This document shows positions 1-24,405 of a DNA stretch of 50,894 bases, in pieces. The DNA comes from a virus, in the IMG/VR virus record IMGVR_UViG_3300027976_000055, positions 1 through 50,894 of that record; one strand, written 5' to 3'. Within the stretch, counting starts at the first letter, position 1; each line of letters opens with the position of its first letter. The notes beneath the pieces were generated by a model that ran no database searches, had not been told where the DNA came from, and saw only the letters and a list, made by a program, of their open reading frames with translations. Position numbers and translations under genes: made by a program.

Positions 1-747
1 CTCATCAGCAAGAACGTTTCTGTGGGCTGCTTCCCAGTGGGCGAGAGTCTTGACTGATGTCTGCACGCCCTCAAACGTCATTGAGGATTGTGGCTTGAGG
101 CCGAATACTGCGGTGCTCGCCGCGCCTGCCACGCCTGCCACGACAGCGCGCTCAGCGACTGACGCTGCATTGTTGGTGAATCCCGTCATGCGGAAGTACT
201 CAATCACGGTTGAAGTCGTGGTGCGAACTGGGAACAGGTCGCGAACACGCTTCGTGCGCTTTGGAGGAACAACGATTGGGTCACGCGTAATTGTGCCAAA
301 GCTGTTTGGGGGACCAGATGGCATTGCGGTGTAAACGTCCTTGACGTTATAGCCTCCACCAAGAGCACCCTTGAACTGGTACGGGGATGGCATGTTTGCA
401 CCATTGAGTCCGTTGTTCAAAGCCTTGAATTCAGCAGACGCAATAAATGCTTCGCCGACTGATGTCAATTGCTGTGTTGGAATTGAATAGCCAGCGGCAG
501 CGGCGGCGGCGACTGACTGACCAGAAGCCTCCGAACCCCACTCCTTGACGCTGTTCATGGCTTCTAGTCCATCAATCAAGCCCTTGAGCTCCTTGATGTC
601 TGTCATGTTTTTGTCAAATGATGCCTTCTGCTTTGCGTTGACGATTACGGTGCCGTTCTCAATTTTGAATGAGTCAGCGATTTCCTTATTGTCCGCCATC
701 TTTGTGCGGAGTGCTCCTTGGAGCTCTTTGAGATTATCTTGCGACAT
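1..747 (-). CDS. Major capsid protein, HK97 fold (N-terminal part, cut by window edge)
   Basis: The first 249 codons are present and the C-terminus lies beyond the left edge. The protein begins MSQDNLKELQGALRTKM. A charged, probably helical N-terminal stretch (about residues 1-65) is followed by an Ala-rich linker (about 80-87) and then the motif pattern of HK97-type capsid subunits, with PPKRTKRVRDLFP and a following segment ending VIEYFR. This is the major building block of the icosahedral shell. The ATG at 747-745 has an AAGGA ribosome binding site eight bases upstream on the minus strand. It is the last gene seen in the minus-strand head block, and a 115-bp AT-rich gap before it suggests its own promoter, as expected for the most abundant virion protein. 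The N-terminal region looks too short for a full HK97 delta (scaffold) domain. The family call is from pattern recognition, not a search. Confidence 0.85.
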   Translation of the reverse strand, partial: MSQDNLKELQGALRTKMADNKEIADSFKIENGTVIVNAKQKASFDKNMTDIKELKGLIDGLEAMNSVKEWGSEASGQSVAAAAAAGYSIPTQQLTSVGEAFIASAEFKALNNGLNGANMPSPYQFKGALGGGYNVKDVYTAMPSGPPNSFGTITRDPIVVPPKRTKRVRDLFPVRTTTSTVIEYFRMTGFTNNAASVAERAVVAGVAGAASTAVFGLKPQSSMTFEGVQTSVKTLAHWEAAHRNVLADE

Positions 748-4632: not shown

Positions 4633-5032
4633 TGTTTCCTCTTGCTTCCAGCAAATTCATCATTATCTGTGCGACTTTTGTCTGTGCGTCAATGGTATCA
4701 CTTCTCTTTTTGCTGGGCTTTTTGCCATCACTCAACTGAACCACGGGGATGTCGCCCCAAATAGATGGGTCTATTATTGATTTCCGTTCAACAAACACGT
4801 CCGACCATAGTTTGTGGTCCTTATGTCCTGGCTCCGTCCAAAGTGCGTGCTGTAAACCGTTGTCGTGAAGTTCTTTGAGGTCGGCCTTGGAATTGACCCA
4901 ATCCCAAAACGGCACGGGATGAACCACTCCATCACGACCGACCACCGCGCCCGTCTCGTTTTCACCGACCCCTTGGTCAATCACTAAATAGACCATATTG
5001 CCACTCTCTGTCGCAACAAGGACGCCGTTCAT
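4622..5032 (-). CDS. Small head-region protein, unknown function
   Basis: A 136-residue acidic protein beginning MNGVLVATESGNMVYLVIDQ, with beta-strand-like alternation in its first 45 residues and a Trp-rich middle (VPFWDWVNS, LWTEPGHKDHKLWSDVF). The C-terminal part (SKKRSDTIDAQTKVAQIMMN) is likely helical. It overlaps the preceding gene by four bases and the following gene by eleven. I recognise no family. The compact position inside the head operon supports it as a real gene. Confidence 0.5.
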   Translation of the reverse strand: MNGVLVATESGNMVYLVIDQGVGENETGAVVGRDGVVHPVPFWDWVNSKADLKELHDNGLQHALWTEPGHKDHKLWSDVFVERKSIIDPSIWGDIPVVQLSDGKKPSKKRSDTIDAQTKVAQIMMNLLEARGNNGH

Positions 5033-8000: not shown

Positions 8001-9318
8001 CTAACTTTGTTCCTTCTCTGTATACTGGAACCATTCTGGCTTCGGCTTTAATCTCAAGCGTGCCATCGCCGCCCAGTATGCCGGCGGGCATAATGTATTT
8101 CACCCGCCTGGCCTCATCGGGGTTTGTTGTCCACTTATATATCAGCGCTTCCAAAAGGGCAACCTCGGCCTTCTGAAGCATCTCTACCGTAATCTCGTCT
8201 CGTTCTAATTTGCGCATCAATCTTCGTACTGTTGGGTCGCTGCTTCTGCTATGTAGCTCCCATAATTTTTCTGCCTGAAACAGTCCGTCCGTGTTCACCG
8301 TCCATCCGCCGCCCTCGTTGCCCATTTCGTTTAATTTGGCAAATATTGCCGTTACGTGTTTGCCTTGTTTTTTTTCTTCTGGAGAAAAATTACGTATATT
8401 CAAATCCGACAGTAACTGAGTTATTGTTTCATCTATTATTTCAAGTTTCCTGGCTACGCGCGCAGGTGCATTTAAACGAGATGCCCGCAATCCCTTCTGC
8501 GCCGCGCGAACGGATTCCGACTCTCGGAGTTTGCTGGCCGGCAAAAAACCAACGTCTCCGCGACTGGCGAAACTACTGGATTCAAGCAATTTCTCTAGGT
8601 CTCGTATTCCTTCGGTTGCCAAACCGACCATCTCGGAAAGCGATGTCCCAAAACAGGTGCTTCCTATTTTGTCGGTAAATTGATTAGCCTGAGGTGTCCC
8701 CGGTGGGCATCTAAATTTACCTAAACCGTCAACCAAAACACCGAAGCGCCTCGCTGCGCGTTGGGCCAGACCCCCAGCGGGATTGAGTTCCCTGATGGAC
8801 CTACCGATTGATTTTTCACTGAGGTCGTTGTTTAACGGAAGGCGTTTTTCAACCTTGCTAATTGGCTTGTTATTTTTGTCTACCCTGTATACATCTTTCC
8901 GAACACGGGGCTGCGCGGCGACCCATGCCATATGGTCTTCTGCTGTTGCAAATTTTGGGTCGTCGTCATCAATCCACCCAAAGTTTGGCTTTTTTGAGAA
9001 ACTTAGTCGTTCTGCTTCGGTGGGGAATAATTCCAATTTTTTGCCTGGTCCGCCAGTTGCGGATGGCTCGTATTTCCATCCATCTTCGTTTACTACCCCG
9101 GGCAATTCTTTTTCTTTTTGTTTAGGTGCCCCGGGTGCACTGGCCCCAATGGTATTGTCCATGCCCTTGACCGACATCTCATTACTAAGTGACGGTGATT
9201 TTTGGGCATACAGAATCCCGTTTAGAAATTCATCTACCAAGTACTCGGTGCGTTCTTGCGAGTGGCCGGTGGCCCTTAGCGAGGTGATGAAACGAGTTAC
9301 ATTGCTATGCTGACCCAT
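5029..9318 (-). CDS. Giant multidomain head protein: zincin motif, ADP-ribosyltransferase-like segment, actinophage C-terminal domain
   Basis: A 1429-residue protein. In order: a polar N-terminus; a Cys module FRCPPGTPQANQFTD...STCFG (about residues 200-225) shared with the 662-residue neighbour; one FASRG motif at residue 250; a zincin signature FHEFFHVLQ with HEFFH at 521-525 and a plausible third ligand in TENSEVQKLEMLSEVG; a segment around 790-885 that reads like an ADP-ribosyltransferase core (IRVARG, then SIDSVSSHE, then IVTTTPGTRGIFTT and LIVPPSKLKI), though the usual catalytic Glu pair is unclear; and a C-terminal domain from about 1110 (GFLAHSSHDDRTRSILKRQG, IMGGFGKDDIAEIRYPWSKV, LGFTEEEIAYFYS) of a type I associate with MuF-like proteins of actinophages. 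This set looks like a virion-carried effector or internal head protein. The zincin call is fair; the ART call is weak. It lies 19 bp after the 461-residue gene. Confidence 0.7.
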   Translation of the reverse strand: MGQHSNVTRFITSLRATGHSQERTEYLVDEFLNGILYAQKSPSLSNEMSVKGMDNTIGASAPGAPKQKEKELPGVVNEDGWKYEPSATGGPGKKLELFPTEAERLSFSKKPNFGWIDDDDPKFATAEDHMAWVAAQPRVRKDVYRVDKNNKPISKVEKRLPLNNDLSEKSIGRSIRELNPAGGLAQRAARRFGVLVDGLGKFRCPPGTPQANQFTDKIGSTCFGTSLSEMVGLATEGIRDLEKLLESSSFASRGDVGFLPASKLRESESVRAAQKGLRASRLNAPARVARKLEIIDETITQLLSDLNIRNFSPEEKKQGKHVTAIFAKLNEMGNEGGGWTVNTDGLFQAEKLWELHSRSSDPTVRRLMRKLERDEITVEMLQKAEVALLEALIYKWTTNPDEARRVKYIMPAGILGGDGTLEIKAEARMVPVYREGTKLADIKYAIKYDTQRILSELKKEFTALEKGTSYGFTVEGGGNDLAKAAALLEYLDNARAHYASTAAASQSDDPIRVKAAFVGFHEFFHVLQAEKVIAEVLGNEKLKDRLVSEITAEELMGLMKNVGDGIDISQLGLSDTDNEINRYFGGKYAGSMTENSEVQKLEMLSEVGALREVGVLVGDEIDDALSFYDTPKVQRNRLKSDTDKRSRAELTRNTMHKPQVLVGGKPDVPETPVEDGSPKPSIRTKRPRLLRDEISTIAYIKKQRKNQLQALEPEEVKAVERLLIPEYHQISRLTSSDSNDIQNAVTRINRKNRTLVEMGLEPDQLDMDEATVSQQLERTLIPVLTALDKSELRDSVTIRVARGNDGVNVGDAVSIDSVSSHELLHDDMGVPPGSLIVTTTPGTRGIFTTAKDGDEGAGRLIVPPSKLKITRIDADGTAYAEIVDQDSSRDILAKLQRTWPETSDNPSTLNLLQRQKIEIDKSIDVHNNALRGSSSGILGNGRSHPVAANRVRLNNTKAIDAIRKAGGRPVGIDREYADSVSAGLSSRMTSTFGDIETPVERSVSKSSSAVKVLDGLRSLASNGSPDGMEDIVIGEEVQNILDNYSDNEIVRMLDISAFDLHQGFDRRPRVRFTESGLDKFSSSDGMISPKLSGSRKLVQTEYQARMGIHSDTGNTERPVSGFLAHSSHDDRTRSILKRQGIVAGDAPFEYPGSSTPYGNVGADGDIEILLRPEVSGRTSYGMGRGADNKTRPVWMNSENRQDIADALVHVDDANVRNSKVRVLNALTAYLDDDVSAMNQTKLVKPVRNSASHAQDIDAFDADMSGNQVFGAHIMGGFGKDDIAEIRYPWSKVESASKDVDISDVVNKEPLSSKLQRLGFTEEEIAYFYSLNGDSLGSMNTSAMKQLRAYRASKKIEDKYKKQGIPSVSFAHIYGLDMHSPLSYSVTNSAITKTVDGVLSERITKEIDAELEQALKRLQKTRASVAGLSR
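7744..7758 (-). other. Zincin active-site motif HEFFH
   Basis: Codons for His-Glu-Phe-Phe-His, residues 521-525 of the 1429-residue head protein, inside the phrase VGFHEFFHVLQAEKVIAE. In zincin metalloproteases the two His bind zinc and the Glu activates water. A Glu about 70-85 residues later (TENSEVQKLEMLSE) would fit a third ligand. Protease activity is inferred from this motif alone. Confidence 0.55.
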
Positions 9319-9337
9319 CGTGGGGCTCGTTTCGCCG

Positions 9338-10723: not shown

Positions 10724-10775
10724 GGAACCAATCCTTATGTGGGCAAAGTATTTTACTCGTGATTTATATTAGCCT

Positions 10776-10805
10776 AGTATACTCCACCATTTTATAACGG
10801 ATTAA
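10776..10805 (-). promoter_or_regulatory. Candidate promoter for the 461-residue head gene
   Basis: In the 91-bp gap after the giant protease gene, the minus strand reads TTAATC (10805-10800), an 18-bp spacer, then TATACT (10781-10776). The -10 box is close to consensus and the -35 box matches three of six positions. The start codon of the downstream gene is about 50 bases further. The gap is AT-rich and otherwise empty. Confidence 0.35.
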
Positions 10806-10814
10806 TAAAGGGGG

Positions 10815-13800
10815 TTATTGGCGAAATTTATCAAATTCGCCTTTATCAATTCCGAGTCTCTCAAGTAGCGCGTCCATCTGGCTCACGGTGATGGGGAGCC
10901 CGCCAAGACCTTTGCCGCGTTGAAGTTTTGGACCGCTTCCAGAGCGAGGGTCAACCGTGCTATTTACATACCGAGACAGGGTTGCCCTTGACAATTTCTT
11001 ACCCGTAACCTCCTCTAGGGCTGCGTGTAGTTCGCCAAGCGAACTCTTGCCGCCGGTGCGGAATGGCTTAAATGCACGGTGCGCCAGTATCTCTCTGGCA
11101 TCTAGGTCTTGTGGAACTGCAGCGCCGAAGCCCGAACCGTACATTTCTTCAATTTTGGCCGCAATTTTGTTTTTTGACATGTTTGGGTAGTGATTTTTGA
11201 GTAGTCGTTCTACCTGCCCGCGACTCAGCCCTTCGCCCTCAAGGGCTTTTCTCCACTCGGCACGCGATAACACGCCTATCCCCTCAAGCAGTCCTCGTTG
11301 ACCACGATTTCCCTCGTAGTTGATTTCTTCCAACAGCGCATTGATATCGCCGCCCTCGGCTGTGGCTTTGCGTGCTATGCCTCTCCCGCGTGGGCGAGCA
11401 CGTGGGTCGTCTGGGGGATTGTCGGTCGCATTGTCGCCGAACAGTTCGTACAAACGACCCCTGTCCGTAATCGGGTCGCCGGATTCATCAAAATAGGCTG
11501 TCGGGTTATCGGCACCCCAAATTGCTTCTGGTCTGTCCCTACCAATTCGCCGTGCTAGGGCGTCGGCCAAATATGGGTCTCGTATCCGTGCATCCGGTTG
11601 AGTAAGGATTGCTGCTTGGCTTGGGGTTATTCCAAGTTCGGCGGCAATATCCGTATCCTTTTTCAATTCGTATTTCCCACTACTTCCTTGCCTGAAAAAT
11701 CTGGCGAGGGAATTCTCGCGGGCAGTGTCCCAAATTTTAGATAGTGCCCACGACTGACCACCGCCGTCATCGCCAACCCAAATGTCGCCATCGTCTATCT
11801 GGATTTGCCTGCGACCTCGCGATTCGGCAGATACCTGGGAGTCGCCTTCTATCCCGCGAACCGTTAAGTCAACGCCTTTTGGACTACGTTGTTTTTGGGG
11901 TGACAAAACCCCCGCGTCAATTGCGGCTTGCTTTTCCGCATCCACGTCTACCGTGTCATCAAAATTGTAATCGTCTAGCAAGTTTGTTATCTTGCGTGAA
12001 CCAAAACCGTCTTCGTCCTGCGATGGCCCAGGGCGACGTTTTGATGGAACGCGCCTGGCGCGGAGTCTGTCTCCATCAACAAATCTTTGTCTGTCTTCTT
12101 TGCTCCATGCGCGACGCTTGCCCTTTCTGCCTCTTCCGCGTGATGCGAAGCCCTCGTCTTCTCCTAAATATGGTTTTTCACGCTCTAGGAATGCGGTGAA
12201 TAGTTTTCGTAATGGGGGCGAATCCATGCCCGCATCCTCAATGTCCCCCGCATGGAAATTGTAGAAGCTGTCAGTCAGGTCTACGAACCAATCTGGGTGG
12301 TTGCCGTCATCGTCGCGGGTCGTCCATCTGCCGACAGTTTCATTCATCAAATCGTTTGTCATCATGAGTAGTCCGTGGCGTTTAATGGCACCGGGGTCTT
12401 TTTTCTCCATCGCCTTTGTGGGACTACCTGACTTCCACGGGTATTTCTTGCCGTCTTCAAAAAGTTCGGATGCTCTTTCGTATGTGTCTAGCGTCCGTGA
12501 CCCAAACCCAGGCGTCGCCATTTCCGCGACATCTTTGACATCTACTTCCAGTCCGCCCTTATCTTCCGGCTTGAACAACTGTCCCATGTTGGGGGACAGC
12601 CCCATTGCGTAGTTGAATGCCTCTTGCGCCTGCTTCATGGCCCTTGGCAACGCCGTCGGGTCATCGCGTAGTACCCTTAGCCAATTCGCCAAATATGGCG
12701 CGTGATTATCTTGGATGTCTGGCTCAAGCCCGTGGGCGGCAAGGAACATTGATGACGCTATTTCCGCAATCAATTCTTCGTACGCATACTCAGGGCTACC
12801 GAATTGGTTCATGTTTGCGCGCTTTAATCTTTTTTCTCCGCCCGTCCAGTGCATTAATTCATGCGCGACTGTTCCGTAGTACCCTCTAGCGTTTTTGAAA
12901 TCCGAAAACGCCGGGACGACAATAATGTCCTTGGACGGCGAGTAATATGCCCTACTGCCCTCATGATTAAGCACTGGTGCTATTTCGGCTAAGGTTTTTT
13001 CCAAATTATCAATTCGTGTTGCTTCTGGTAGTGCCTCAACCACTCCGTAATCTTCCGGAAGACCATCAACCTCATCGCGGTTGAAAACCCGAATCACCCT
13101 CCACGACATTCCACTGCGCTCTGCTACTTTGCCCGTTGCGGGGTCAAGGGTGCCTTTTTTGTCCTTTGATTTAAACGGAATCGGAACAAAAATTGGCACG
13201 CCTTTAGCGCCCTTGCGCACCTGACCACCGGCTGATTCCCATTGTCCGTATCCGGCCCACTGTTTGCTCTCGTACCCACGCGCAGACCCGATAATCGCCA
13301 GTGTCATAAAGTTAGAACCAGAATAAGGTTTTTTGGTGGTCGGGTTATTTGGCATTGATGTAACGCGCCACGGCATTTTCCAAGATGTTGGGTCGGCTTG
13401 CTCAATGGCTTCAATTAATTGCGCATTGAGGTACTCAAACATTTCATCTTTTGTTTTGATGCCGGTTTCAGAACCATATGTAAATCTGGAACCAAAACCG
13501 TCAGAACCGCTGATTGTAAATTCGTCGCCTACAAGTGTGACTATTGCGCCTTCGGGTAAATCCTTAAATGAGGCTAATGGGTCATCTTTTGGGCGACCAC
13601 CACCGCGGCCCAATTCGTCTCGGGAATTAAATCCACCACCAGCAAGCACTCTGTCAATTTGTTGATTTGCAAATGCAGCCCTGTCGTTACGGCTCATTCC
13701 TGCCCACGCGAGCGCCGGTACGGTTCCGTTGTCTAGGTCATATACAAACCCGTCTGCATCTGTGATTACCCAACGTTGCGCAAGTTCGCCATCGACTGCT

Positions 13801-16800
13801 CGCCCACGACCGCGGCGACCAGCTAGGTATTCAATTCCGAGTCGCTCTAGTGAATCACGAATAGCGTCAAGTTGGTCCATCTGTTCAGCCTGGAACCCGC
13901 GCCCTTCGCGTCGTCGTGGGTTTCCGGTCCCGCTTGGGATAACTGCTTCGGTGACGGCAAGGGCAAAGTTATTAACGGCGTCCCCGTCGTCAAGGTCATT
14001 CTCCATTTGTTCTTGAAGTTTGCTCAATGTGTTGTCGTTATCAATGAGTCTGCCCCGTCGTATGCCGCGTTGCGGATTTCTTCCACGTGAGGCAAAACCG
14101 CTGCGGGCGTCGCCTGCTTCGTCGCGGCCCCTATCTTCTTCAAGGTCAGCGTTTAGGTTTGCCCAATCTTCTGGAGTCCAGTTTGCGCGTTCAGCGGCTA
14201 CTCTTTCACGCTCCCTCGCATCCCTAGTTTCCGCCCGCTTTTTAGCAGTTATCTGAGGCGGAGTGAGTCCGCCTGGACTTTTTGCGCGGCGTGCATCTCG
14301 TCTCGCGTCCATGCGGGCTTGGTATTCTGCTTCGGTAGAAGCATCGTCAAATATGCCATCAATTGGGTCTGGCTTATTGGAATCATCGCGTGAACCAAAA
14401 CCTTCGTAAGCGTGCGCCGGGAGTGCATCGCGGGTTGTGAACTCGTAATCGTCGCGAATGGTCCGAAGAACACCACCACGACTGTCAGCGTTTTCCAAAT
14501 CGCTTACTACAGACTCTGGGACATCGGCGTAGTCGTAGATTTTGCCAGTGCCCTCACCGTTGCGGCCACGGTATTCAACCGATAGAACCCGATTGTCCTT
14601 ATCGTACGCGACTGAATTCAAGGCTTGGCTTGAGGAAACATCAATTTTGCGACCACCCAATCCGGCGGCGTCGGCTTGGCGTTCTAGCGATGCCATCTCT
14701 CTGTCGTCGAGTGCGCGTCGTTTGGCGGCTTCTACAAGGTCGTCTGCTGACTCGCCAGAACCGTTGCTTATTGCGTGGTCCGTTACCCTCTTGAGATAAC
14801 TGATTTGGTGTTCTGGTTTTAGTCTATTCCAGATTGAATCAAGTTGATTTTTTTCCATTTCTTGAGCGACATCTGAACCTTCGCGCGCGAACCTATTTCC
14901 CCTGTCTCCCTCATCGGCCCGTCGGAAAGAGTGCGTGCGCTTAATGTCATTAATAGCACGACCCTTGCTGGTGTTGTCGCGGAATTCGGCGAGGTCGTCT
15001 TGAGTTACACCCTCGTAAATGTAGATTCTTCCACCGGGATACATGACAATCAGTTCTGATACCTCTGGGTCGTAATAGGCATCTTCAAGAGCACTTGAAC
15101 CAGATACATCAACAACTTCTATTGAGGAATAATCTGGCTGAGCGCCCCTGCTGGCGAAATCGTCACCACCGGAACCCATGTATGACGCGCGGTCATCTTC
15201 GTAACCGGGAGAATCCATGTACGCTGTTTCTAGTGCGCTGACAAATTCCTCAATGCTACCCAAGTCCCCCAAATCATCGCTGTATTCATCGTCATCGGCT
15301 AAATTGATATATTGTCTTTTTTCTTCAGTGCTTAGGCTGTTCCAGTTATCGAGAATTGTTTTGGCACGGCGATTATATTGTTGTGGCAGAGGTCCATCGG
15401 CATTACGACCTCCAGTTTCAAGTTCATCCATGTGTTGCGCTATTTGACCTTCGCCAAAAGGAGAATACTTTTTTGACCCCGTGCCGCGCGAGGCGAAACT
15501 GTCATCATCTCCGCCACTAAACGAATAAAGGTCGGTCGGATAGGCCTCACTCCATTCACTTTCCTCCGGGGCGCTGACCATTTCGTAGTTGCGGAATGCC
15601 TCATTCCTGCGATACTGTTCCTCGGCTTGGTCCGTAAGTTGGCTGACTATCGCGTCAACTTCGTCACTAAGTTTATCTATGTCATCAGGGGATTTCGCGT
15701 TGCGAATCTTCTTATCGAGTTCGTCAATTTGTGCGATTTGCTCTGAATTTATATAGTCATAGTCGTTAAGTGTCTCATTATCGTTATCGTCAAGCGGCAT
15801 GTTCGTAACCATGTCACGAGCGCCGAGAAGATGAGACGACATTTCATCCCTCATTGAGTCTATTTGTTCTTCGTGTGTTGCTCCCCACTTTGGGTGGTCT
15901 AGGTCAGTGTCAACATTCGCCCTTCCGTGCTTCTGCAACTCGCTCCAGATTCCCGATGAGTGTTCTTCTCTGTCTCTCGCCAACTGTTGGTCTGCGCGGT
16001 ACTTATCAAGTACATCATCAGCGGCTTGGATTGCAGACCCATACTCGTCTAGCAGGGTCCAATCATCGTCATCGCCGGCCGCAATTTGCTCAATGATGTC
16101 GTAATTACGCGAGTTTTTACCGCGCGGTGGACCGTTGTATCCATTTGCCGTCCCCATCTCATCAGCGGCGCGGTTGCGTGCTTCAATTAATTGTTTGCGG
16201 TATTCAAGAAGTCCGTCAAGACCGCGTTGTGCATTGTCGGCATCATTTAGTTCGGTGAGTTCGTAACCGCGCTTGCGGAAACGAGACGGGTCTTCAATAA
16301 GATTGCGTGACTCATCAAGCATTTCGGCAGTTGAACGGCGTGCACCACGCGAGGCCAAGCCCTCACGATTTGCCCGCTCCGTGAATGCATCTCTGTCAAG
16401 GTCAAGAGGTTCTTCGTCCTTGAAAAACGGCAATTTATCATCGTCCGGGTATTTATCGGCAAGCCAAGCATCAACGATGTCTCTGTATTCCGATATTACG
16501 TCTTTACCGTTATTCTGGTCACTGGACATTTGTCTAATAAGGTCGCGTTCAGCTTCGTTCCATTTATCTCGCCGACTACCAGTTGTTCCGTAGCTCATAA
16601 CCCGTTCGTTGAGTGCATCCCAAACATTGTCATCGCTGACGGGCAGGCTAGTAATCCCGCCCTCTTCTAAGAGGTTGCTGAATTCATCGTAATGTTGTTT
16701 GTCAAATCTGTTACCAGGAGACGTGTTGCCACGTGAGGCGAAACCGCCGCCGTCTTTATCATAAGCGGCTTCTGCGAGTTCTTCTGCAATTTCGGTCAGG

Positions 16801-19800
16801 CGGGGACTATCCATCCTGTCGGTCATCTCGTCGTCGGGCCACCCCTCGTCAAAGAGTTCCTCAAACCGAATTCGTTCTGCTTCCTCAAACTGGCTCTCTG
16901 TTAAGTTCCAGCGCTCATCGCTAGATAGGTCGTCCCATTTTTTCTTGCCACGTGAGGCGAAACCCTCGCCTGCATTATCAAAGCGTTCAAGTATTTCTAG
17001 TGCCTCATAAATTTGAGACGATTCAACATTCGTGACATTTTTGACGAGTTCCTCTACATAAAGTATGTTGCCGTTTTTCTGGAATGGATTACCTTCGTCA
17101 GCCCCTTCTGCACGCAAAGCATCAACCCTTGCAAGAATTTCCTCGGCTATCGCACTGCGCTCTTTCTGCGCTATCCGATTCCACTCTTCCTCCGCGGCAT
17201 CCGAATCATGGTTCCGATTACTTGGGGGTAGTCCTCCGAACTCTTCGTAATAGTCCTGCAACCAATCGCGTTGTGTGTCGCGGTCAAGTTCGTTAAAGTC
17301 AAGTATATTTTCGTCGATTTGGATGCTCTCGCGTGAGGCAAAACCATCATCGTCTGCGCCGTAATATTTGCCCGTTTGCTTGTCAACCAATTTGTTAATA
17401 GCCGAACCGCTTAGGGCTGGCTCCCAGAAAGTTTTGTTGTCATCGCTTAGGTATTCTGGTCTCAGGGAAGCGTTGTAGGCGGTTTCACCGACATCTTCGG
17501 CATAAACATCGTTCCATTGTGCGAGAACACGGTTCTTACCCTTGTCCTTGCCGCTATTTATAATCTTTTCTGCGCGCACGTAATAAGTATCAGCGCCGCC
17601 GTTATATCCAACAATTACCTGTTGGTCCTTGTTGACAGGAAGAACCATTTCATTGCCACGCATCTTTGTGCGCCCGCCAGAAATTGCCCCGAGATTTCCT
17701 CGGCCGATTTGGCTTAGTGTTTCCCGGGTGTTGAATTCACTTGGCTCATCGCCGTACGGTGTCGGCCACTGTTCCGTTGATGCACGTGAACCGAAACTAT
17801 CGTAGCGGCTACGCCCACCCCTACGTTCTACGACCTCCATCAAATCGTCGTAGTCCGCAGCATCGGTTACTCGATTGAAATAATCGCGGAAAGCCTTCTC
17901 CATTTCTGGATTAGAAAATGCATCCCGTGTATTTATTTTGTCAACGTATGAACGGAATTCGGCAACGCGCTTTTCTGCAAGCGCCCTATCCGTAGTTTTG
18001 TAGTCAGGGCGCTTATTATGGAGTTCTTCCATATAACCCAGGTCGGTCTCATCGGCGGCATTAAGAATGCCAAGTTCACCGCCGGAGAAATAACGCGTTA
18101 GAAATTCATCCTCCGATTCACGTAGAACCGAACCGTTTCCGTCATAAACTCTGTCAAAAAAGTATTCCTCGTAGTCGTCATTATTAAAATCATAGTCATC
18201 TGGTGGCTCGTCATAAGCGCGACCAAAGCCACGTGAACCGAAACCGCCGTCGTATTCCTCCGGGTTATCAGCGAGATACTGCCCAACATCATCGGGGTCA
18301 ACGGATGCATCCAGCCAATCCTGGTACGCCTGTTCGTATTTATCTGGATTTTTCTTTCTTTCAAGATTGGCACGGTACGAACGCCGTCGACCCTCTTCAA
18401 GATACGATTGGAACTCAGCGATGCGCTTTTCTACAAGCGCCCTATCCGTGGTTTTGTAGTCGGGGCGCTTATCAAATAGCACTTCCATGTAAGGGTCGGA
18501 TTCAGTATCCAGTGGTGCAATCCCCGTGCCAAGTTGACCACCAGAGAAGTAACGCGTTAGGAACTCATTTTCTCCGTCATCCATACCGTAGACATTATTC
18601 TCAAAGTAATCGTCCATGTCGTCATCAGTTACTTCTACTTCGTCGTAGTCGGGCGGCTCAAAATAACTTTGCGGGGGCATACCATCGCCGCGCGAAGCAA
18701 GACCTTCATCGGCCTTGCGGAAGGTGTGCGTTTTCTTGATTCTGTTGATTGCCGCGCCCTTGCTCTTGGCAGTATTCAGGTCATCAAAATCGTCTTCGGT
18801 CACGCCCTCGTAAACGTAGGTTCCGCCGCCACGGTACTTAACCGTCAGTTCCTGGTCGCGGTCGTTCCATGATGCTTTTTCCAAAGCAGAACTGCGTGAG
18901 ACATCAATCTTTTCGGTGCGCCCATCTGCGAGTTTGTCGGCTCGTTGTTCACTGAGGACAACCTCGTGGTCGTATCTTTCGGCCCAACTCTGAGCGGCTT
19001 CCCTGCTCGTGAATGTCGGTGATTCTTCTATTTCATCAAACCCGGGTCCATCGGCATAACTGTTTGTGCGCTTGCCGACACGGACATTGAACTCGCCGCC
19101 GTAGCTTATTTCTTGAATTTCGTACGATAACCCAGAGCCACTCTCTATTGTGTTGTCGTCTGGGTCCGCTGAAGCCCAGTCCAACGATGGCGCTGATTCT
19201 CTGGTTTCAACCTCATCGGCATTGGCTTTACGGAATGCTTTGGTGCGCTTGATTTCATTAATTGCACGACCCTTAGACGGAGCACTGTCAAATGCATCCG
19301 CATCTGCTTGTGTTACACCTTCGTAAATATATGTTCCGCCCGGTTCTCCGTCGGGCCCGTTGTAGGTAACTACAAGCTCCTGAGCGCCCGAATCGTAATG
19401 GGCGGAAGCAAGAGCCTTGCTATCCGCGACATCTATTGGTTCAATGGGGGACTTCGCCTTTGGCGGGCTCGTAATCTTGTCAATGGTTTCTGGGCGGGCT
19501 TTTTCTACATCGTGCTTGCCCTTAATTTTGTTAATTTCTCTGCCCTTAGAGTTTGAATCGTGAAGTGCATCAACTTCTTTTTGGGTTACCCCTGAATATG
19601 TGTACCAACTTGTTGGGCCATCCGTGCGCTTAAAACCGACATGCAATTCTTGGTTTTGGGCATCGTAGTGAGCGCCGTCAAGTGCCCCGCTGAACTCTGT
19701 GTCAATTTTATCAAACGGCGTTGTATCAGTGCGTGAACCAAGACCCTCATCTGGTTCGTAATTCGTCAAAGATTTTTCGTACTTATCAATCATTTGTGTA

Positions 19801-22319
19801 ATATGGTCCGGAAGGGTTGCCGTGCGGACATTACCCTCATCGTTTGCGTTGTGGTAATCAACTATGCTCTGGGCTTCGTTGCGCACCATGTTGTTGAAGT
19901 CTGCGTGGTCCTCGTCATTCATTCTCAAAATTCGGGACCTATTGTTCTTGTCGTCCATGAAGCTTGAACGCAGTGCTTGGGCCACCATATTGCGCTCTAA
20001 GTCGGGGTGTTGCGCTCTTAGAATTTCACCCCACGAGCTCTTTTTGCCAGCTGAAGCAAATCCGTCGTCTGGTTCTACATCTGCAATGTTGGCTTCAATC
20101 CAGGCATCGGCGATGTCGGGGTAGTGGAAAGATGGGTCGTCTGCTGATTGGACATCTCCCAGCAACGAGGCAATGGCTTCCTCGCGCATGTATTCGATAT
20201 AGAAGGGGGATGACGTAAGGTGACGGTCCTTGGGGGCAATATTCGCCGCTGCTTCTTCTATGAAATCCGAAATCCGGTCTTCATGTTCATCGGTCATTGG
20301 CAATTCGCTCAAGTCACGGACCGCATCGTTGAATGCGTTGTACGTGTCAATGCTGTACTTGGGTTTATCATCGCCACGTGAAGCAAAATCGTCACCATCA
20401 AGAAGTGAGGCACCCCCATCATCTTCGTCAAGACTGTCTCGGTAATTGTCGTCATCGTCTAGGGCGTCCTCTTCCTCCTGGTCGAGTTCGGCGCGCAGTT
20501 TGCGGGCGGCAATGGTTTCGGGTTTCGTTACTGGCTTCGGAGCATCTTCCCGTACCGGCGACTTTGTGGGAGCGGCTGCACTCTTTGGTGGAACAAACTT
20601 TTTGCCGAATTGCTGTTCATAGGAAGTTCTACGGGCAAACTCATGCGAGACCTTATATAATTCGGTATCAACGGCATCACGACCCTCGGCGCCAGTTGAG
20701 CGACGGGTGCTAAGTAACCTTTGACCCGCAAGATTTAATTCAGAATCGTTCATGTCCCAGTACTTGGCAAGACCAGCGTTTAGTGGTCGCCTGTCAGCAA
20801 GGAACATCATGTCTTCGCGCGTCCGTGGCTGTAGTGTCCCGGCAGCCAATGCCCTTTGACGCGGTTGACCAGCGAGTGTTGCGGGGTCAACGGTTGATTT
20901 TGGACCCGTGTCTATTGTTGGCTTGTCCAGTAACTCCGTGGCATTGCGTTTCTTCCCGCCGACATCAGGTAGGTCAACATTGGGTTTCTTGATGGGGATG
21001 TAAGGGCGCATGAATGCAGTGTTGTCTTGCGCGAAACCGTCAGCATCACCGTCAATTGCATTGGGGTTGAATCCTTGCGCTATTGTCCGCAATGTTCCAG
21101 CGGTCTGTCCGATTGTTTGACCAATGGCCTTAACTGCTGTCTGAAGTGCATCCATCGCTTGCGCGGACACAACGCCGTTGATACCAATTCCCTTATCGGA
21201 CGTGTATGTCTCCAGTTTGTGATATTGAAAAACCGGTTCCAACATTGATAGTGCATCCTTAATGGCATATTGCGGTAACTCAATCAAGTGTGTAACGGCA
21301 GATTTCCCGTACGATGAACTAACAGCATCAAGCAACGAACTCATTTCGTCTTCGTCATCATTTCTGTATGCCGCACCCGCATTTGGCACAACGACTAATT
21401 CGTCTGGGTTTGGCTTTGTCACGATGTTTTGCTCTACTTCTGGTTTTACGACAGATGTATAGGCCTCTGGTTTGCCAAACATAAATGTTTCATAATTATC
21501 TGGCGTGTGATAGCCAACTCTGAATGTTGATGTTTTTCCGCTGTCCTCGGTGCGCTTGAAAATCAACGAACCTTCCGTTGCTGAAATAATTTCTACTTGT
21601 GAGTTGGTCCGCTCTGACAGTTCTTGCTGAATTTTACCCTGCTGCTCCTTTGAAAGTTTTTGAGCCAGTCCTTCCGAGAAAATATCCTCTTCTCCGTTTT
21701 CTTCGCCTTCCGTAGACGCTGGCACTGCAATAATGCGGGGCATCTGTTCTGGTGAAATCATCCGCAGCATGCTGGCGAACGGATTCCCCGTCACTAATGG
21801 GGTCTCCTCGGCGTGTTTGATGGAAATTGTGCCAGTTAGGTGATTGGCCCCATGGAGCACGGGAGAAACCTCGTAAAGTTCAACCTCTTTAAGCACATTT
21901 GCTTGCAGATTGGCATCAAAAATTGAGTCAAGTGTCTTATAACCAATTGACCATTCTTGGTCTTCGCCGAAAAAAGCGACGCTTGCAAATGCTTCTTTGC
22001 CTTTTTCGGAGTTAAGGTTAAACTGGACTTTTGCATACAGTCCGCCTACGCCGGCATCTCTCATTTTGGCTGGAAGGCGCGGGTCGCCCAGTGGAACTTC
22101 GTACATTTCAAGAACTTTGCCGATTGGGTCGTTCCAACTGTGACCCCACACGACTCTTGGCTTGCGCCTGGTGAGGCTTTTGGCAAACGCACCACTGATT
22201 ACGATGTCACCAACGGAATCCTTATTGCCGATACCGGCTACGAAACACTCAACAATCCCCGTGGCTTCGTCAATGTTGACCTGACCAGTTCCAGATTTGT
22301 ATTTTATTTCTTGATTCAT
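10815..22319 (-). CDS. Giant prohead protease polyprotein with FASRG-punctuated modules, five KTSC domains and an ArdC antirestriction unit
   Basis: One uninterrupted frame of 3834 residues; HK97-type prohead proteases are usually near 200 residues. Residues 1-170 are the protease: VVWGHSWNDPIGKV with His60, EWSIGYK with Ser124, then a Glu-rich strand before VSPVLHGAN. Around residue 420 there is NPNAIDGDADGF, a Ca-loop-like sequence. From residue 645 to 3439 a short motif, D/G-x-F-A/G-S-R-G, recurs 19 times plus one degenerate copy (FAREG, residue 2477) and divides the protein into modules. KTSC domains lie at about 872-941, 962-1032, 1138-1203, 2402-2468 and 2553-2625. An ArdC-like unit spans about 2947-3265. 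The C-terminal 395 residues are basic, with helix-turn-helix-like stretches (DIAAELGITPSQAAIL; KLSRATLSRYVNSTV). The protease should mature the head. Cutting of its own modules and their ejection with DNA are hypotheses. The start has only a weak GGTGA site upstream. Confidence 0.9.
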   Translation of the reverse strand: MNQEIKYKSGTGQVNIDEATGIVECFVAGIGNKDSVGDIVISGAFAKSLTRRKPRVVWGHSWNDPIGKVLEMYEVPLGDPRLPAKMRDAGVGGLYAKVQFNLNSEKGKEAFASVAFFGEDQEWSIGYKTLDSIFDANLQANVLKEVELYEVSPVLHGANHLTGTISIKHAEETPLVTGNPFASMLRMISPEQMPRIIAVPASTEGEENGEEDIFSEGLAQKLSKEQQGKIQQELSERTNSQVEIISATEGSLIFKRTEDSGKTSTFRVGYHTPDNYETFMFGKPEAYTSVVKPEVEQNIVTKPNPDELVVVPNAGAAYRNDDEDEMSSLLDAVSSSYGKSAVTHLIELPQYAIKDALSMLEPVFQYHKLETYTSDKGIGINGVVSAQAMDALQTAVKAIGQTIGQTAGTLRTIAQGFNPNAIDGDADGFAQDNTAFMRPYIPIKKPNVDLPDVGGKKRNATELLDKPTIDTGPKSTVDPATLAGQPRQRALAAGTLQPRTREDMMFLADRRPLNAGLAKYWDMNDSELNLAGQRLLSTRRSTGAEGRDAVDTELYKVSHEFARRTSYEQQFGKKFVPPKSAAAPTKSPVREDAPKPVTKPETIAARKLRAELDQEEEDALDDDDNYRDSLDEDDGGASLLDGDDFASRGDDKPKYSIDTYNAFNDAVRDLSELPMTDEHEDRISDFIEEAAANIAPKDRHLTSSPFYIEYMREEAIASLLGDVQSADDPSFHYPDIADAWIEANIADVEPDDGFASAGKKSSWGEILRAQHPDLERNMVAQALRSSFMDDKNNRSRILRMNDEDHADFNNMVRNEAQSIVDYHNANDEGNVRTATLPDHITQMIDKYEKSLTNYEPDEGLGSRTDTTPFDKIDTEFSGALDGAHYDAQNQELHVGFKRTDGPTSWYTYSGVTQKEVDALHDSNSKGREINKIKGKHDVEKARPETIDKITSPPKAKSPIEPIDVADSKALASAHYDSGAQELVVTYNGPDGEPGGTYIYEGVTQADADAFDSAPSKGRAINEIKRTKAFRKANADEVETRESAPSLDWASADPDDNTIESGSGLSYEIQEISYGGEFNVRVGKRTNSYADGPGFDEIEESPTFTSREAAQSWAERYDHEVVLSEQRADKLADGRTEKIDVSRSSALEKASWNDRDQELTVKYRGGGTYVYEGVTEDDFDDLNTAKSKGAAINRIKKTHTFRKADEGLASRGDGMPPQSYFEPPDYDEVEVTDDDMDDYFENNVYGMDDGENEFLTRYFSGGQLGTGIAPLDTESDPYMEVLFDKRPDYKTTDRALVEKRIAEFQSYLEEGRRRSYRANLERKKNPDKYEQAYQDWLDASVDPDDVGQYLADNPEEYDGGFGSRGFGRAYDEPPDDYDFNNDDYEEYFFDRVYDGNGSVLRESEDEFLTRYFSGGELGILNAADETDLGYMEELHNKRPDYKTTDRALAEKRVAEFRSYVDKINTRDAFSNPEMEKAFRDYFNRVTDAADYDDLMEVVERRGGRSRYDSFGSRASTEQWPTPYGDEPSEFNTRETLSQIGRGNLGAISGGRTKMRGNEMVLPVNKDQQVIVGYNGGADTYYVRAEKIINSGKDKGKNRVLAQWNDVYAEDVGETAYNASLRPEYLSDDNKTFWEPALSGSAINKLVDKQTGKYYGADDDGFASRESIQIDENILDFNELDRDTQRDWLQDYYEEFGGLPPSNRNHDSDAAEEEWNRIAQKERSAIAEEILARVDALRAEGADEGNPFQKNGNILYVEELVKNVTNVESSQIYEALEILERFDNAGEGFASRGKKKWDDLSSDERWNLTESQFEEAERIRFEELFDEGWPDDEMTDRMDSPRLTEIAEELAEAAYDKDGGGFASRGNTSPGNRFDKQHYDEFSNLLEEGGITSLPVSDDNVWDALNERVMSYGTTGSRRDKWNEAERDLIRQMSSDQNNGKDVISEYRDIVDAWLADKYPDDDKLPFFKDEEPLDLDRDAFTERANREGLASRGARRSTAEMLDESRNLIEDPSRFRKRGYELTELNDADNAQRGLDGLLEYRKQLIEARNRAADEMGTANGYNGPPRGKNSRNYDIIEQIAAGDDDDWTLLDEYGSAIQAADDVLDKYRADQQLARDREEHSSGIWSELQKHGRANVDTDLDHPKWGATHEEQIDSMRDEMSSHLLGARDMVTNMPLDDNDNETLNDYDYINSEQIAQIDELDKKIRNAKSPDDIDKLSDEVDAIVSQLTDQAEEQYRRNEAFRNYEMVSAPEESEWSEAYPTDLYSFSGGDDDSFASRGTGSKKYSPFGEGQIAQHMDELETGGRNADGPLPQQYNRRAKTILDNWNSLSTEEKRQYINLADDDEYSDDLGDLGSIEEFVSALETAYMDSPGYEDDRASYMGSGGDDFASRGAQPDYSSIEVVDVSGSSALEDAYYDPEVSELIVMYPGGRIYIYEGVTQDDLAEFRDNTSKGRAINDIKRTHSFRRADEGDRGNRFAREGSDVAQEMEKNQLDSIWNRLKPEHQISYLKRVTDHAISNGSGESADDLVEAAKRRALDDREMASLERQADAAGLGGRKIDVSSSQALNSVAYDKDNRVLSVEYRGRNGEGTGKIYDYADVPESVVSDLENADSRGGVLRTIRDDYEFTTRDALPAHAYEGFGSRDDSNKPDPIDGIFDDASTEAEYQARMDARRDARRAKSPGGLTPPQITAKKRAETRDARERERVAAERANWTPEDWANLNADLEEDRGRDEAGDARSGFASRGRNPQRGIRRGRLIDNDNTLSKLQEQMENDLDDGDAVNNFALAVTEAVIPSGTGNPRRREGRGFQAEQMDQLDAIRDSLERLGIEYLAGRRGRGRAVDGELAQRWVITDADGFVYDLDNGTVPALAWAGMSRNDRAAFANQQIDRVLAGGGFNSRDELGRGGGRPKDDPLASFKDLPEGAIVTLVGDEFTISGSDGFGSRFTYGSETGIKTKDEMFEYLNAQLIEAIEQADPTSWKMPWRVTSMPNNPTTKKPYSGSNFMTLAIIGSARGYESKQWAGYGQWESAGGQVRKGAKGVPIFVPIPFKSKDKKGTLDPATGKVAERSGMSWRVIRVFNRDEVDGLPEDYGVVEALPEATRIDNLEKTLAEIAPVLNHEGSRAYYSPSKDIIVVPAFSDFKNARGYYGTVAHELMHWTGGEKRLKRANMNQFGSPEYAYEELIAEIASSMFLAAHGLEPDIQDNHAPYLANWLRVLRDDPTALPRAMKQAQEAFNYAMGLSPNMGQLFKPEDKGGLEVDVKDVAEMATPGFGSRTLDTYERASELFEDGKKYPWKSGSPTKAMEKKDPGAIKRHGLLMMTNDLMNETVGRWTTRDDDGNHPDWFVDLTDSFYNFHAGDIEDAGMDSPPLRKLFTAFLEREKPYLGEDEGFASRGRGRKGKRRAWSKEDRQRFVDGDRLRARRVPSKRRPGPSQDEDGFGSRKITNLLDDYNFDDTVDVDAEKQAAIDAGVLSPQKQRSPKGVDLTVRGIEGDSQVSAESRGRRQIQIDDGDIWVGDDGGGQSWALSKIWDTARENSLARFFRQGSSGKYELKKDTDIAAELGITPSQAAILTQPDARIRDPYLADALARRIGRDRPEAIWGADNPTAYFDESGDPITDRGRLYELFGDNATDNPPDDPRARPRGRGIARKATAEGGDINALLEEINYEGNRGQRGLLEGIGVLSRAEWRKALEGEGLSRGQVERLLKNHYPNMSKNKIAAKIEEMYGSGFGAAVPQDLDAREILAHRAFKPFRTGGKSSLGELHAALEEVTGKKLSRATLSRYVNSTVDPRSGSGPKLQRGKGLGGLPITVSQMDALLERLGIDKGEFDKFRQ
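12525..13481 (-). other. ArdC-like antirestriction unit embedded in the polyprotein
   Basis: Residues about 2947-3265. The first half matches the ArdC N-terminal (ssDNA-binding) domain: KMPWRVTSMPNNPTTKKPYS, NFMTLAIIGSARGYESKQW, QVRKGAKGVPIFVPIPFKSK. The second half is its zincin partner: GYYGTVAHELMHWTGGEKRL with HELMH at 3153-3157 (12849-12863), then YAYEELIAEIASSMF giving the third ligand. ArdC proteins of conjugative plasmids protect incoming DNA from restriction. FASRG-type motifs at residue 2942 and residue 3272 bracket the unit almost exactly, so cutting there would release an intact ArdC of about 330 residues. Confidence 0.82.
14445..19706 (-). repeat. Five KTSC domains within the polyprotein
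   Basis: Positions are about 19706-19497, 19436-19224, 18908-18711, 15116-14916 and 14663-14445. Each copy has the KTSC pattern: an Ser-Ala-Leu start (SSALEKASWN, SKALASAHYD), a beta pair with a Gly (ELTVKYRGGGTYVYEGV), then a Ser-Lys/Arg-Gly turn (AKSKGAAINRIKKT). Copies 1 and 2 are adjacent. Copies 3 and 4 end in nearly the same way (TFRKADEG, SFRRADEG) and run straight into a FASRG-type or degenerate motif. The KTSC family has no firmly known role. The copies differ widely in sequence, so they are old duplications. Confidence 0.8.
17870..18665 (-). repeat. Duplicated ~100-residue module within the polyprotein
   Basis: Two consecutive modules (residues 1207-1360 and 1360-1509) share the run EFLTRYFSGG and then KRPDYKTTDRAL, followed by EKRIAEFQSY or EKRVAEFRSY. 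At DNA level a nearly identical block of about 49 bases occurs near 17969-18017 and again near 18425-18473. Each module begins after a FASRG-type motif. This shows whole modules being copied with the motif as border. Confidence 0.75.
21770..22319 (-). other. Prohead protease domain of the polyprotein
   Basis: This part encodes residues 1-183. It follows the S78/U35 caudoviral prohead protease layout: an early beta-strand region ending VAGIGNKDSVGDIVISGAF, the His-bearing strand WGHSWNDPIGKV (His60), the nucleophile strand WSIGYK (Ser124) and the closing VELYEVSPVLHGANHLTGT. All expected core elements are present, so the domain is probably active. Confidence 0.88.
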
Positions 22320-22400: not shown

Positions 22401-22426
22401 GTTTCACTATATGGATATAATGAAAC
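22401..22426. promoter_or_regulatory. 26-bp near-perfect palindrome between portal and protease genes
   Basis: GTTTCACTATAT, two bases, then ATATAATGAAAC. The two 12-base arms are inverted copies with a single G-T mismatch. It touches the portal stop codon and lies in the 106-bp gap before the giant protease gene. The AT-rich arms, the two-base loop and the lack of a T-run argue against a normal terminator. An operator or an mRNA processing hairpin is possible. Confidence 0.35.
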
Positions 22427-24405
22427 TAAATGGTTTGCTCCCATGCCTGTCGTGCCTCGTTGGCAACAACCTGGAATCTAACCTTGCCTAATACATTTGT
22501 GAATATTTCAACTATCTCGTTCCTAAAGTACTCATGACGGGCCTCTTCCCCGGAAACCGATGTCGCCCTAGTAATAGCGCTTCGGATTTGTGACTGTGTG
22601 TCCGTATTTATTTCTTTGATATTGAGCATATGGGTGTTGGCTTTCGCAAAAACCTCCGTTGCATCAACGGGCATTTGTTGCATCTCCATTGAATCCCTGA
22701 TGATTGCGGATAGAACGGGTTTGATGTCCTCGTCCATTTGTTTTCCCCAAACATCTATGCCGAAAATTGACTCTATGTCAAGGGTCCCAGCAAATAGCGC
22801 TTTTCTGGATTTAGCGCCTGCCGATTTTTCCGTAACCACTCGTTGCTGTCTTTCCAGAACCCGTTCAAGTGACCTGTCTAGGATTTGAGTCCACCGTTCA
22901 AGGGCATTTTCCATTTCTTCACTCTTGAACGACATCGGGCCGGATGCGACCGCCAACCCTGGCGGCGTTGGCTCAATTGCCGTCTCGGGGGCACCACCCG
23001 CAACCCCGGATGCTGCGGCAGCAAGTGCACCCGCCATGGTGCTGGGGTCAGGCGCCCCTTCTGTTGGTGGCAGGGCATCTGATGGCATTCCCGGTGGAGC
23101 CTCTGGTGGCATTCCAGGAGGAGGCGCACCGCCCTCTCCGCCCATCATCACTGGCGGTTCTTCCATCTTTTTCTTTGTGTTTGCAATTGGGGTTAGATTC
23201 GGGTTCATTAACAATGAATCCGCAAGGTCGGCATCTACTTCTTTTCTTCCGCTGGCAAGCCGATATTCGTTGACACTTATGAGACCCTGAGACAATTCAT
23301 CTTTTGAGTATCTTTCACGTTCCTGTTTGTAGAGTTGCAATACGGGGACCTCGCTTAAATCAAAGTCCACATAATTGTCGGGGTCAAGTTCGTCCAGGGC
23401 GCGAGCGAGTGGCTCAAGATGGGGCAACATTGTTTCCATCCAGAACACTCGGATTTCCTCGGCCGCATTGCTAAATGTTCTACCGGCCGCATTTCCAATA
23501 ACCGTTTCTGGCACGCCGAACGATGCGAGAATTTCCTCTTTGGTAATTTGCCGCATTTGAATATAAGCGGCATCTCGTGGTGATGCACTGGTGTCAACGT
23601 AATCGGCGCCATCGTCCGCAGAGAGAACCGTTGTCGTGCCCGTGTGTGCCAAATTACCTCTAAATCGATTCTTTAACTCATTCTTGTCGTCATCGCTGAT
23701 TTCGCCCTTGACCACGAGTATCCCGCCTGGGCGGCCATCGTTCATTAAAAAATTACGGTTGTAGAGTTTTGCAAAGGTCTCAATTTCAATGGCAATACCA
23801 GCCGACTCCATTGGGGTAAGTGAGAGATACGGGTCAAGCGGGTGAGGTCTGCGTACCCACACGACATCCTCCGGCCTCATGACGATTACCCCGCCGTTTG
23901 GCATTGTTACTTCATATCCGGAGACAAATTTCTTGGCATCAGGGATTGGCGCGGTGTGCTGCGGGGGGAGAAGGTTCAGTCCTATAATCTCGCCGTTGCG
24001 ACCCCGTACCTTTTCAATGAATGCGCCGCGCGTACCAAGCAGTAATTGGGATGAAAGCCGATAACGAAAGATGAATGAGTTTTCGCCAATGTTTGATTTG
24101 GTATTTAGAACCTCAAGAAGCGATGATTTCTTGGCGTTTTTGCGTGAGATTATTTCGCCATCGGGAGAGTTATCTTTTCGTAGCATGATGGGCAGGCGGG
24201 CCTGGTTGCCAGCAATGGCATCAATGCATCTTGCAACCCATGTAACTCGTTGCATCCCTTCTCTGTATGCACGTTCAATGTCCCATGAGTCCGTGTACGC
24301 CTTGCCAGCCAACCCCATGTTTTGTGCGATGGGCGCGCCAGGCCCAATCAGGGACTTTAGTGCCGATGGACCGAGGCCCTTGTTCCTAGACGAGTTCCAT
24401 GCCAT
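22426..24405 (-). CDS. Portal protein, HK97 family, with long C-terminal extension
   Basis: A 659-residue protein forming the ring at the capsid vertex through which DNA enters and leaves. The family core spans about residues 25-400: RVTWVARCIDAIAGNQARLP, then FRYRLSSQLLLGTRGAFIEK, LLPPQHTAPIPD, EDVVWVRRPHPLDPY, the phrase GRPGGILVVKGE, and FGVPETVIGNAAGRTFSNAA. A Pro/Gly/Met-rich linker (about 420-485) leads to a helical C-terminal domain (ERVLERQQRVVTEKSAGAKS, SIFGIDVWGKQMDEDIKPVL), which resembles C-terminal extensions of actinophage portals and may take part of a MuF-like role. It follows the small membrane protein by two bases and lacks a clear ribosome binding site, so translational coupling is likely. 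Confidence 0.92.
   Translation of the reverse strand: MAWNSSRNKGLGPSALKSLIGPGAPIAQNMGLAGKAYTDSWDIERAYREGMQRVTWVARCIDAIAGNQARLPIMLRKDNSPDGEIISRKNAKKSSLLEVLNTKSNIGENSFIFRYRLSSQLLLGTRGAFIEKVRGRNGEIIGLNLLPPQHTAPIPDAKKFVSGYEVTMPNGGVIVMRPEDVVWVRRPHPLDPYLSLTPMESAGIAIEIETFAKLYNRNFLMNDGRPGGILVVKGEISDDDKNELKNRFRGNLAHTGTTTVLSADDGADYVDTSASPRDAAYIQMRQITKEEILASFGVPETVIGNAAGRTFSNAAEEIRVFWMETMLPHLEPLARALDELDPDNYVDFDLSEVPVLQLYKQERERYSKDELSQGLISVNEYRLASGRKEVDADLADSLLMNPNLTPIANTKKKMEEPPVMMGGEGGAPPPGMPPEAPPGMPSDALPPTEGAPDPSTMAGALAAAASGVAGGAPETAIEPTPPGLAVASGPMSFKSEEMENALERWTQILDRSLERVLERQQRVVTEKSAGAKSRKALFAGTLDIESIFGIDVWGKQMDEDIKPVLSAIIRDSMEMQQMPVDATEVFAKANTHMLNIKEINTDTQSQIRSAITRATSVSGEEARHEYFRNEIVEIFTNVLGKVRFQVVANEARQAWEQTI

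Follow-up and report, generated by a model that had tools for sequence, protein, structure and literature searches.

A protease-led open frame among head genes

The window analysed here comprises 50,894 nucleotides, positions 1 to 50,894 of the IMG/VR virus record IMGVR_UViG_3300027976_000055 (Table 1). A block of head genes surrounds a long polyprotein-like open frame, with the portal gene just upstream of it and the gene for the major head protein at the window edge. Pfam places an S78 peptidase, five KTSC stretches, an ArdcN domain and a zincin in this one chain of 3834 aa, and the S78 region is matched by PHROG 3244, a head maturation protease. The original prediction called the product a head protein. 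That label is right only in the sense of a frame that begins with a PF04586 prohead protease inside a block holding portal and major head protein; a structural role for the long tail is putative.

We take S78 to be an assemblin-like kind of peptidase. The domain is N-terminal here (residues 21-165), unlike the C-terminal trend of assemblin-like peptidases reported in 2017. By S78 and terminase the closest isolates are Gordonia phages, at about 41-44% identity, a nearness that hints at an actinobacterial host. With its terminase/portal packaging block, the phage presumably injects double-stranded DNA.

Two neighbouring ORFs on the minus strand belong to the setting. The first, of 1429 aa (P0004, 5029-9318), has no Pfam or PHROG match; its HEFFH sequence could mark a second zincin, and it carries one FASR motif. 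In the second, of 461 aa (9338-10723), as in positions 8956-10410 of the related locus L118, the C-terminal segment resembles by eye the S78 C terminus of the Gordonia phages GMA6 and DalanDe, as if a single ancestral protein had been split.

Table 1. Features of the window, with positions counted from its first letter.
Feature	Position	Strand	Evidence or remark
Polyprotein-like ORF, 3834 aa, one open frame	10815..22319	-	N-terminal prohead protease, then about 18 motif-delimited units
Peptidase_S78 (prohead protease) domain, residues 21-165	21825..22259	-	Pfam PF04586 4.7e-9
Portal protein gene	22426..24405	-	Pfam PF04860 2e-50; PHROG 2662
N-terminal 249 aa of the major head protein; the window end cuts the gene	1..747	-	PHROG 10 3.1e-15
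ArdC unit, residues 2946-3275, motif to motif	12495..13484	-	
ArdcN (ssDNA-binding-like) domain, residues 2962-3079	13083..13436	-	Pfam PF08401 2.6e-22, above cut-off
MPTase-PolyVal zincin domain, residues 3105-3228	12636..13007	-	Pfam PF18818 1.3e-37, above cut-off
HELMH active-site motif, residue 3153	12849..12863	-	Equivalent of R388 H201-E202-H205 (alignment to 6i89)
Glu pair, residues 3181-3182	12774..12779	-	Equivalent of R388 E228/E229, metal ligand helix
Upstream FGSR bracket, residues 2942-2945	13485..13496	-	
Downstream FGSR bracket, residues 3272-3275	12495..12506	-	Low-confidence in both models
Very basic 48-aa unit, FASR 3391 to FGSR 3439	11994..12137	-	pI 11.8
Single FASR in the 1429-aa ORF P0004 (5029-9318)	8560..8571	-	

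The chain contains a complete ArdC unit

The claim that an entire ArdC-type unit lies within the chain is borne out by the Pfam matches to both domains, by the HELMH motif and by a phmmer match against the PDB to the ArdC of plasmid R388 (6i89, E 1.8e-44) that covers almost the full length of the plasmid protein. The ArdcN match spans profile positions 5-123 of 123, and PHROG 7245, 'anti-restriction protein', matches the unit at 4e-75. Five residues of the unit (H208, E209, H212, E236 and E237) are invariant in 17 of 17 aligned rows and align with R388 H201, E202, H205, E228 and E229; the roles of the R388 Glu pair are given in the available text of PMC7213743. The limits first drawn, 12525-13481, do enclose ArdC, but they are not its exact span, which from motif to motif is 12495-13484, and they trim about ten residues of a disordered C-terminal linker.

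Structure prediction had been named as a check on this identity. An AlphaFold2 model of the unit, made with 17 sequences, has a mean pLDDT of 79.5, and its low-confidence ends (1-6 and 307-330) are where the linkers and motifs are located. It matches R388 ArdC (6i89) with a Z score of 25.1 and an rmsd of 3.6 over 264 residues, and Foldseek gives TM values of 0.66/0.78. In an extended model of residues 2881-3410, whose flanks are supported by two sequences, the ArdC body is ordered and both FGSR sites have low confidence (disordered). The zincin part also resembles IrrE (Z 5.6) and weakly matches other metalloproteases (Z under 6, VIA list). Compared with its counterpart in the relative L002, the unit has a dN of 0.121 and a dS of 1.27 and is therefore under purifying selection. 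Together, sequence and predicted structure firmly identify residues 2946-3275 as a complete ArdC, ArdcN plus zincin, with a predicted R388 ArdC fold and an intact zinc site.

A short motif divides the chain

Both FGSR motifs said to bracket the unit, at residues 2942 and 3272, were found around ArdC. F[AG]SR occurs 14 times in the 3834 aa, whereas shuffled chains gave an expectation of 0.11 and a maximum of 2. Written as [FL][AGN]SR, 18 sites split the chain into 19 stretches; when 18 sites were placed at random, an empty ArdC interior with equally close flanks arose in about 0.2% of trials. The F and R codons of the motif vary synonymously, so it is the protein sequence that is maintained. 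The motif serine is encoded by TCA at 12 of 18 sites, against 65 of the 262 serine codons in the gene, an excess that suggests a trace of joint copying.

One of the stretches so delimited is the 48-aa unit, very basic where the remaining chain units are acidic (pI 4.1-5.7). Five other phages of the set have it as well, with 48-66% conservation, and it is perhaps a DNA-binding or head-targeting peptide.

The capsid protein is the main substrate expected of an S78 enzyme. The first 249 aa of the window's capsid protein contain no F[AG]SR. When the capsid N-terminus of the window was compared with those of 15 relatives, W[GA]S turned up in many, with letters independent of the phage's own code, and QLSSR in two phages of LSSG type, near residue 93; a specificity common to capsid and polyprotein is therefore hypothetical. 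By eye, these N-termini (window 1-747, L085, L086, L104-L116) have a conserved Trp near residue 70, often as W[GA]S. It could lie close to the place where the capsid delta-domain is cut, and it recalls the way the polyprotein motif begins, with aromatic-[GA]-S.

ArdC accompanies the long forms of the protease gene

A scan of IMG/VR with the N-terminal 200 aa returned 163 matching stretches, from which 80 loci were kept. Their S78 genes range from 458 aa to 5494 aa, the extended forms measuring 2489-5494 aa. Along their entire length, seven short S78 proteins (458-486 aa) correspond to residues 1-409 of the window protein, and the long tail is therefore an appendage.

Forty-seven records drawn from the 80 loci were searched for ArdC, which was present in 21. 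Of the 25 records whose polyprotein is long or cut off, 20 have it, and the five misses are contigs of 4.6-29 kb that do not imply true absence; of the 22 others, one has it (0/4 forms near 1000 aa, 0/1 fragment, L040, and 1/17 short forms). The sole short-form record with ArdC, G041 (locus L102), has it in another motif-tagged gene. Two large genes of this locus, at 3304-13116 and 13504-18765 (minus strand), lie near the capsid gene and consist of GMRS-spaced units; they carry ArdC, zeta-toxin-like and pentapeptide-repeat domains, and the S78 gene of the locus is of the short form.

Window, L002, L003 and the 21 records make 24 ArdC-bearing records or loci and furnished 19 ArdC rows, with G024-G027 (four near-copies of G023) and the fragment G007 left out and L004, a cut-off sequence identical to the window, uncounted. 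The trees were built without L018, and alignment A1 without L018 and L099, which are near-copies. The 19 rows fall into 15 clusters at 90% identity and hence are not independent.

The bracket recurs in relatives and is spelled differently by different phages

In all 19 ArdC-bearing polyproteins a motif precedes the ArdC core by at most 10 aa. Downstream, one lies 26-51 aa from the core, mostly at exactly 26, in 17 of 19, a figure that is partly post hoc since the relaxed pattern behind it was picked after the misses of strict regular expressions had been seen. The strict expressions passed over FSSR and FASL, giving distant flanks for L095, L099, L101 and L024 and distant downstream flanks in eight rows with FASL or FSSL as well; the relaxed pattern also makes chance-like hits inside the ArdC core, one in L024 and two in L102. 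The downstream exceptions are L103, whose gene ends there, and L003, with LGSM at 25 and LGSR only at 103. As a control, 75 stand-alone bacterial ArdC ORFs from 80 genome loci had the upstream motif in no case; this control is informative on the upstream side only, the downstream stretches averaging 11 aa.

The letters of the motif go by phage: FASR/FGSR in the window, L095-L099 and L101, LGSR in L003, LSSG in L002 and L103, and GMRS in L102 and L040. Copies number 14 for F[AG]SR in the window, 17 for LGSR in L003, 5+6 for LSSG in L002, 12+5+5 for LSSG in three genes of L103 and 3+4 for GMRS in two genes of L102, and each of these five has at most one copy of any other spelling type. The motif is thus shared with neighbouring large genes (once in P0004 of the window, in three genes of L103 and two of L102), the window capsid N-terminus being free of it. 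Because one spelling runs across three L103 genes and two L102 genes, its reader would act in trans.

Homologous ArdC borders are also spelled differently, with FGSR in the window, LSSG upstream and LGSG downstream in L002, and LGSR upstream in L003. The S78 tree accommodates the four spelling types with 3 changes, the minimum, and the FASR group, whose monophyly there is weakly supported (80/78), with 1; on the ArdC tree FASR needs 3 changes, forced by strongly supported branches, and the window and L002 units are sisters at 100/99. The numbers in this comparison are small, with one LGSR row, one GMRS row and two LSSG rows. That spelling tracks the S78 tree and not the ArdC tree favours the protease lineage, or a factor travelling with it, as the putative reader; since S78 goes with the genome backbone, the reader could be encoded by any gene of that backbone.

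The ArdC cassette has probably changed place and partner

The position of ArdC differs among these phages. It lies near residue 1030-1065 in L096 and L095 and near 2960-3270 in the window, L003, L097 and L098; in L002 it occupies a second ORF that follows an in-frame stop codon, in L103 a separate gene and in L102 a different large gene. In L002 the stop, a TAA within 9900-10060, divides the polyprotein just ahead of the ArdC unit, and the second half could start at a TTG exactly at an LSSG motif; the split may be a sequencing artefact, readthrough or a true gene fission.

The window is 90% identical to L095 in S78 and 41% in ArdC; to L002 it is 78% identical in S78 and 81% in ArdC. These discordant identities make it most likely that the ArdC unit moved between lineages. 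Other units are common to the phages in patches, and extra units of other phages include pentapeptide-repeat, UvrD-like, DUF2958 and zeta-toxin-like domains.

A proposed cargo polyprotein read by its own protease

The explanation that we favour, and regard as probable, is that ArdC is a cargo cassette of a prohead-protease-led polyprotein that is cut apart in head maturation and ejected with the DNA. The protease/scaffold-like front part would bring the chain into the prohead, and the S78 protease would cut at or beside the motif ([FL]-[AG]-S-R in the window phage); the freed units would remain in the head and be ejected with the DNA. Ejected ArdC could then shield the incoming genome from host restriction, and would most likely do so by occluding DNA and not as a protease. 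The motif would serve as an exchange-tolerant joint, with cassettes moving between phages and each border adopting the recipient's letters. The original prediction that the phage delivers ArdC with its genome is on these grounds a reasonable one, strengthened by the fusion to a protease, the bracketing motifs and the lineage-specific code. For the broader proposal, in which the prohead protease has become the head of an expandable cargo polyprotein with a lineage-specific cleavage spelling and ArdC-like cassettes are traded and re-spelled, a form of protease-addressed delivery, we judge the case evenly poised.

We consider it unlikely that the motif is a flexible joint left uncut or a side effect of the duplication of units. 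The chain would then stay whole as a virion protein or internal scaffold, with ArdC working inside it or serving as ballast. The motifs do lie in stretches of low predicted confidence, and the TCA excess at their serine (12/18 sites versus 65/262) fits such an origin; however, the synonymous variation of the F and R codons indicates that the protein sequence is kept, and a mere linker leaves unexplained both a single phage-specific spelling over several genes and the change of spelling at homologous ArdC borders in the window, L002 and L003.

A second alternative, that the ArdC fold does another job here, as a DNA-bound protease on host proteins or DNA-protein crosslinks or as a packaging aid, seems to us decidedly unlikely. 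It gains from the likeness of the zincin part to IrrE (Z 5.6), from the comparison of R388 ArdC with Spartan in the available text of PMC7213743, from the suggestion in PMC7824862 that host proteins are the proteolytic targets of ArdC-like zincins in some jumbo phages, and from the presumably double-stranded phage DNA, since R388 ArdC prefers ssDNA (PMC7213743, same text). Against it stands the demonstrated antirestriction activity, directed at type I HsdRMS according to that text, of the solved protein most closely related to the unit across both domains.

It is very improbable that cleavage of the polyprotein at the motif is the work of the ArdC zincin instead of the S78 protease: an auto-processing role for such zincins was proposed by Iyer et al. 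(PMC5512222, in the portion available), ArdC accompanies motif-bearing chains (20/25 long or cut-off records versus 1/22 others) and its HExxH and Glu pair are invariant in 17/17 rows, but motif type tracks the S78 tree and not the ArdC tree, the window and L002 units are 81% identical yet bracketed by FGSR and LSSG, L002 and L103 are both LSSG with ArdC only 38% identical, and R388 ArdC, in the available text of PMC7213743, showed no HhaI proteolysis and a dispensable active site.

Should the cargo explanation be true, the motif makes the cargo readable from sequence, each piece being a candidate injected protein; most pieces are unannotated, and many would likely be counter-defence factors. 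It would also offer a direct test of virion delivery of ArdC by phages and a natural case of co-variation between a protease and its site.

Comparison with known systems

That ArdC occurs in phage 'polyvalent proteins' is already known (Iyer et al. 2017). The N-terminal S78 domain, the motif-delimited units, the lineage-specific spelling and the re-spelled, moved cassette look new; no prior description of an N-terminal prohead protease with motif-delimited cargo was found in the literature covered, which took in few subscription journals.

The ArdC proteins of the IncW plasmids R388 and pSa (PDB 6i89, 6sna) share both domains, a whole-length match and the zinc-site residues with the window unit. 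They are free-standing and needed in the recipient, whereas the window ArdC is an internal, motif-bracketed cassette of a head-block polyprotein. According to the available text of PMC7213743, R388 ArdC prefers ssDNA, does not need its protease activity and probably hinders HsdRMS through DNA binding; it is effective when made in the recipient, supply by the donor is no help, and export was not ruled out. The statement that plasmid ArdC protects incoming DNA thus holds as regards antirestriction, with the caveat that the protein is needed in recipients; the recipient-not-donor result weakens the analogy to virion delivery, export not being excluded.

The P1 Dar proteins offer an analogy of delivery, and the original prediction cited them rightly: they are antirestriction proteins packed in the head and tied to head morphogenesis (PMC9024508, in the part available). 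Several separate genes encode them, and that text describes no motif-delimited polyprotein, in contrast to the single window chain.

Among isolates, the capsid maturation proteases DalanDe gp27 and GMA6 Orf19 of Gordonia phages are closest by S78 domain, at about 41% identity. In DalanDe gp27 the S78 domain stands towards the C terminus, behind a long N-terminal extension, and no repeated motif was seen; GMA6 Orf19 is a short form.

As far as the accessible text of PMC5512222 goes, Iyer et al. (2017) found ArdC domains in large phage proteins that are encoded close to virion genes and for which packaging and injection are predicted, with assemblin-like peptidases always C-terminal and processing mainly by zincins. 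The window ORF is likewise large and multidomain, combines ArdC-N and MPTase and lies near head genes; it differs in its N-terminal S78 domain and in units separated by a repeated, lineage-specific motif.

Parallels to the proposed processing come from T4 and from SPN3US/phiKZ. In the available parts of PMC9026906 and PMC5694885, T4 IPI is an antirestriction factor, a head protein cut by the prohead protease and ejected, and the SPN3US/phiKZ ejection proteins are cut by the prohead protease at A-X-E or S-X-E. Head proteins cut at a short motif and then ejected are what we propose for the window units. The T4 and SPN3US/phiKZ proteins come from separate genes and are cut after Glu, whereas the window has many units per chain, the protease in front and another motif.
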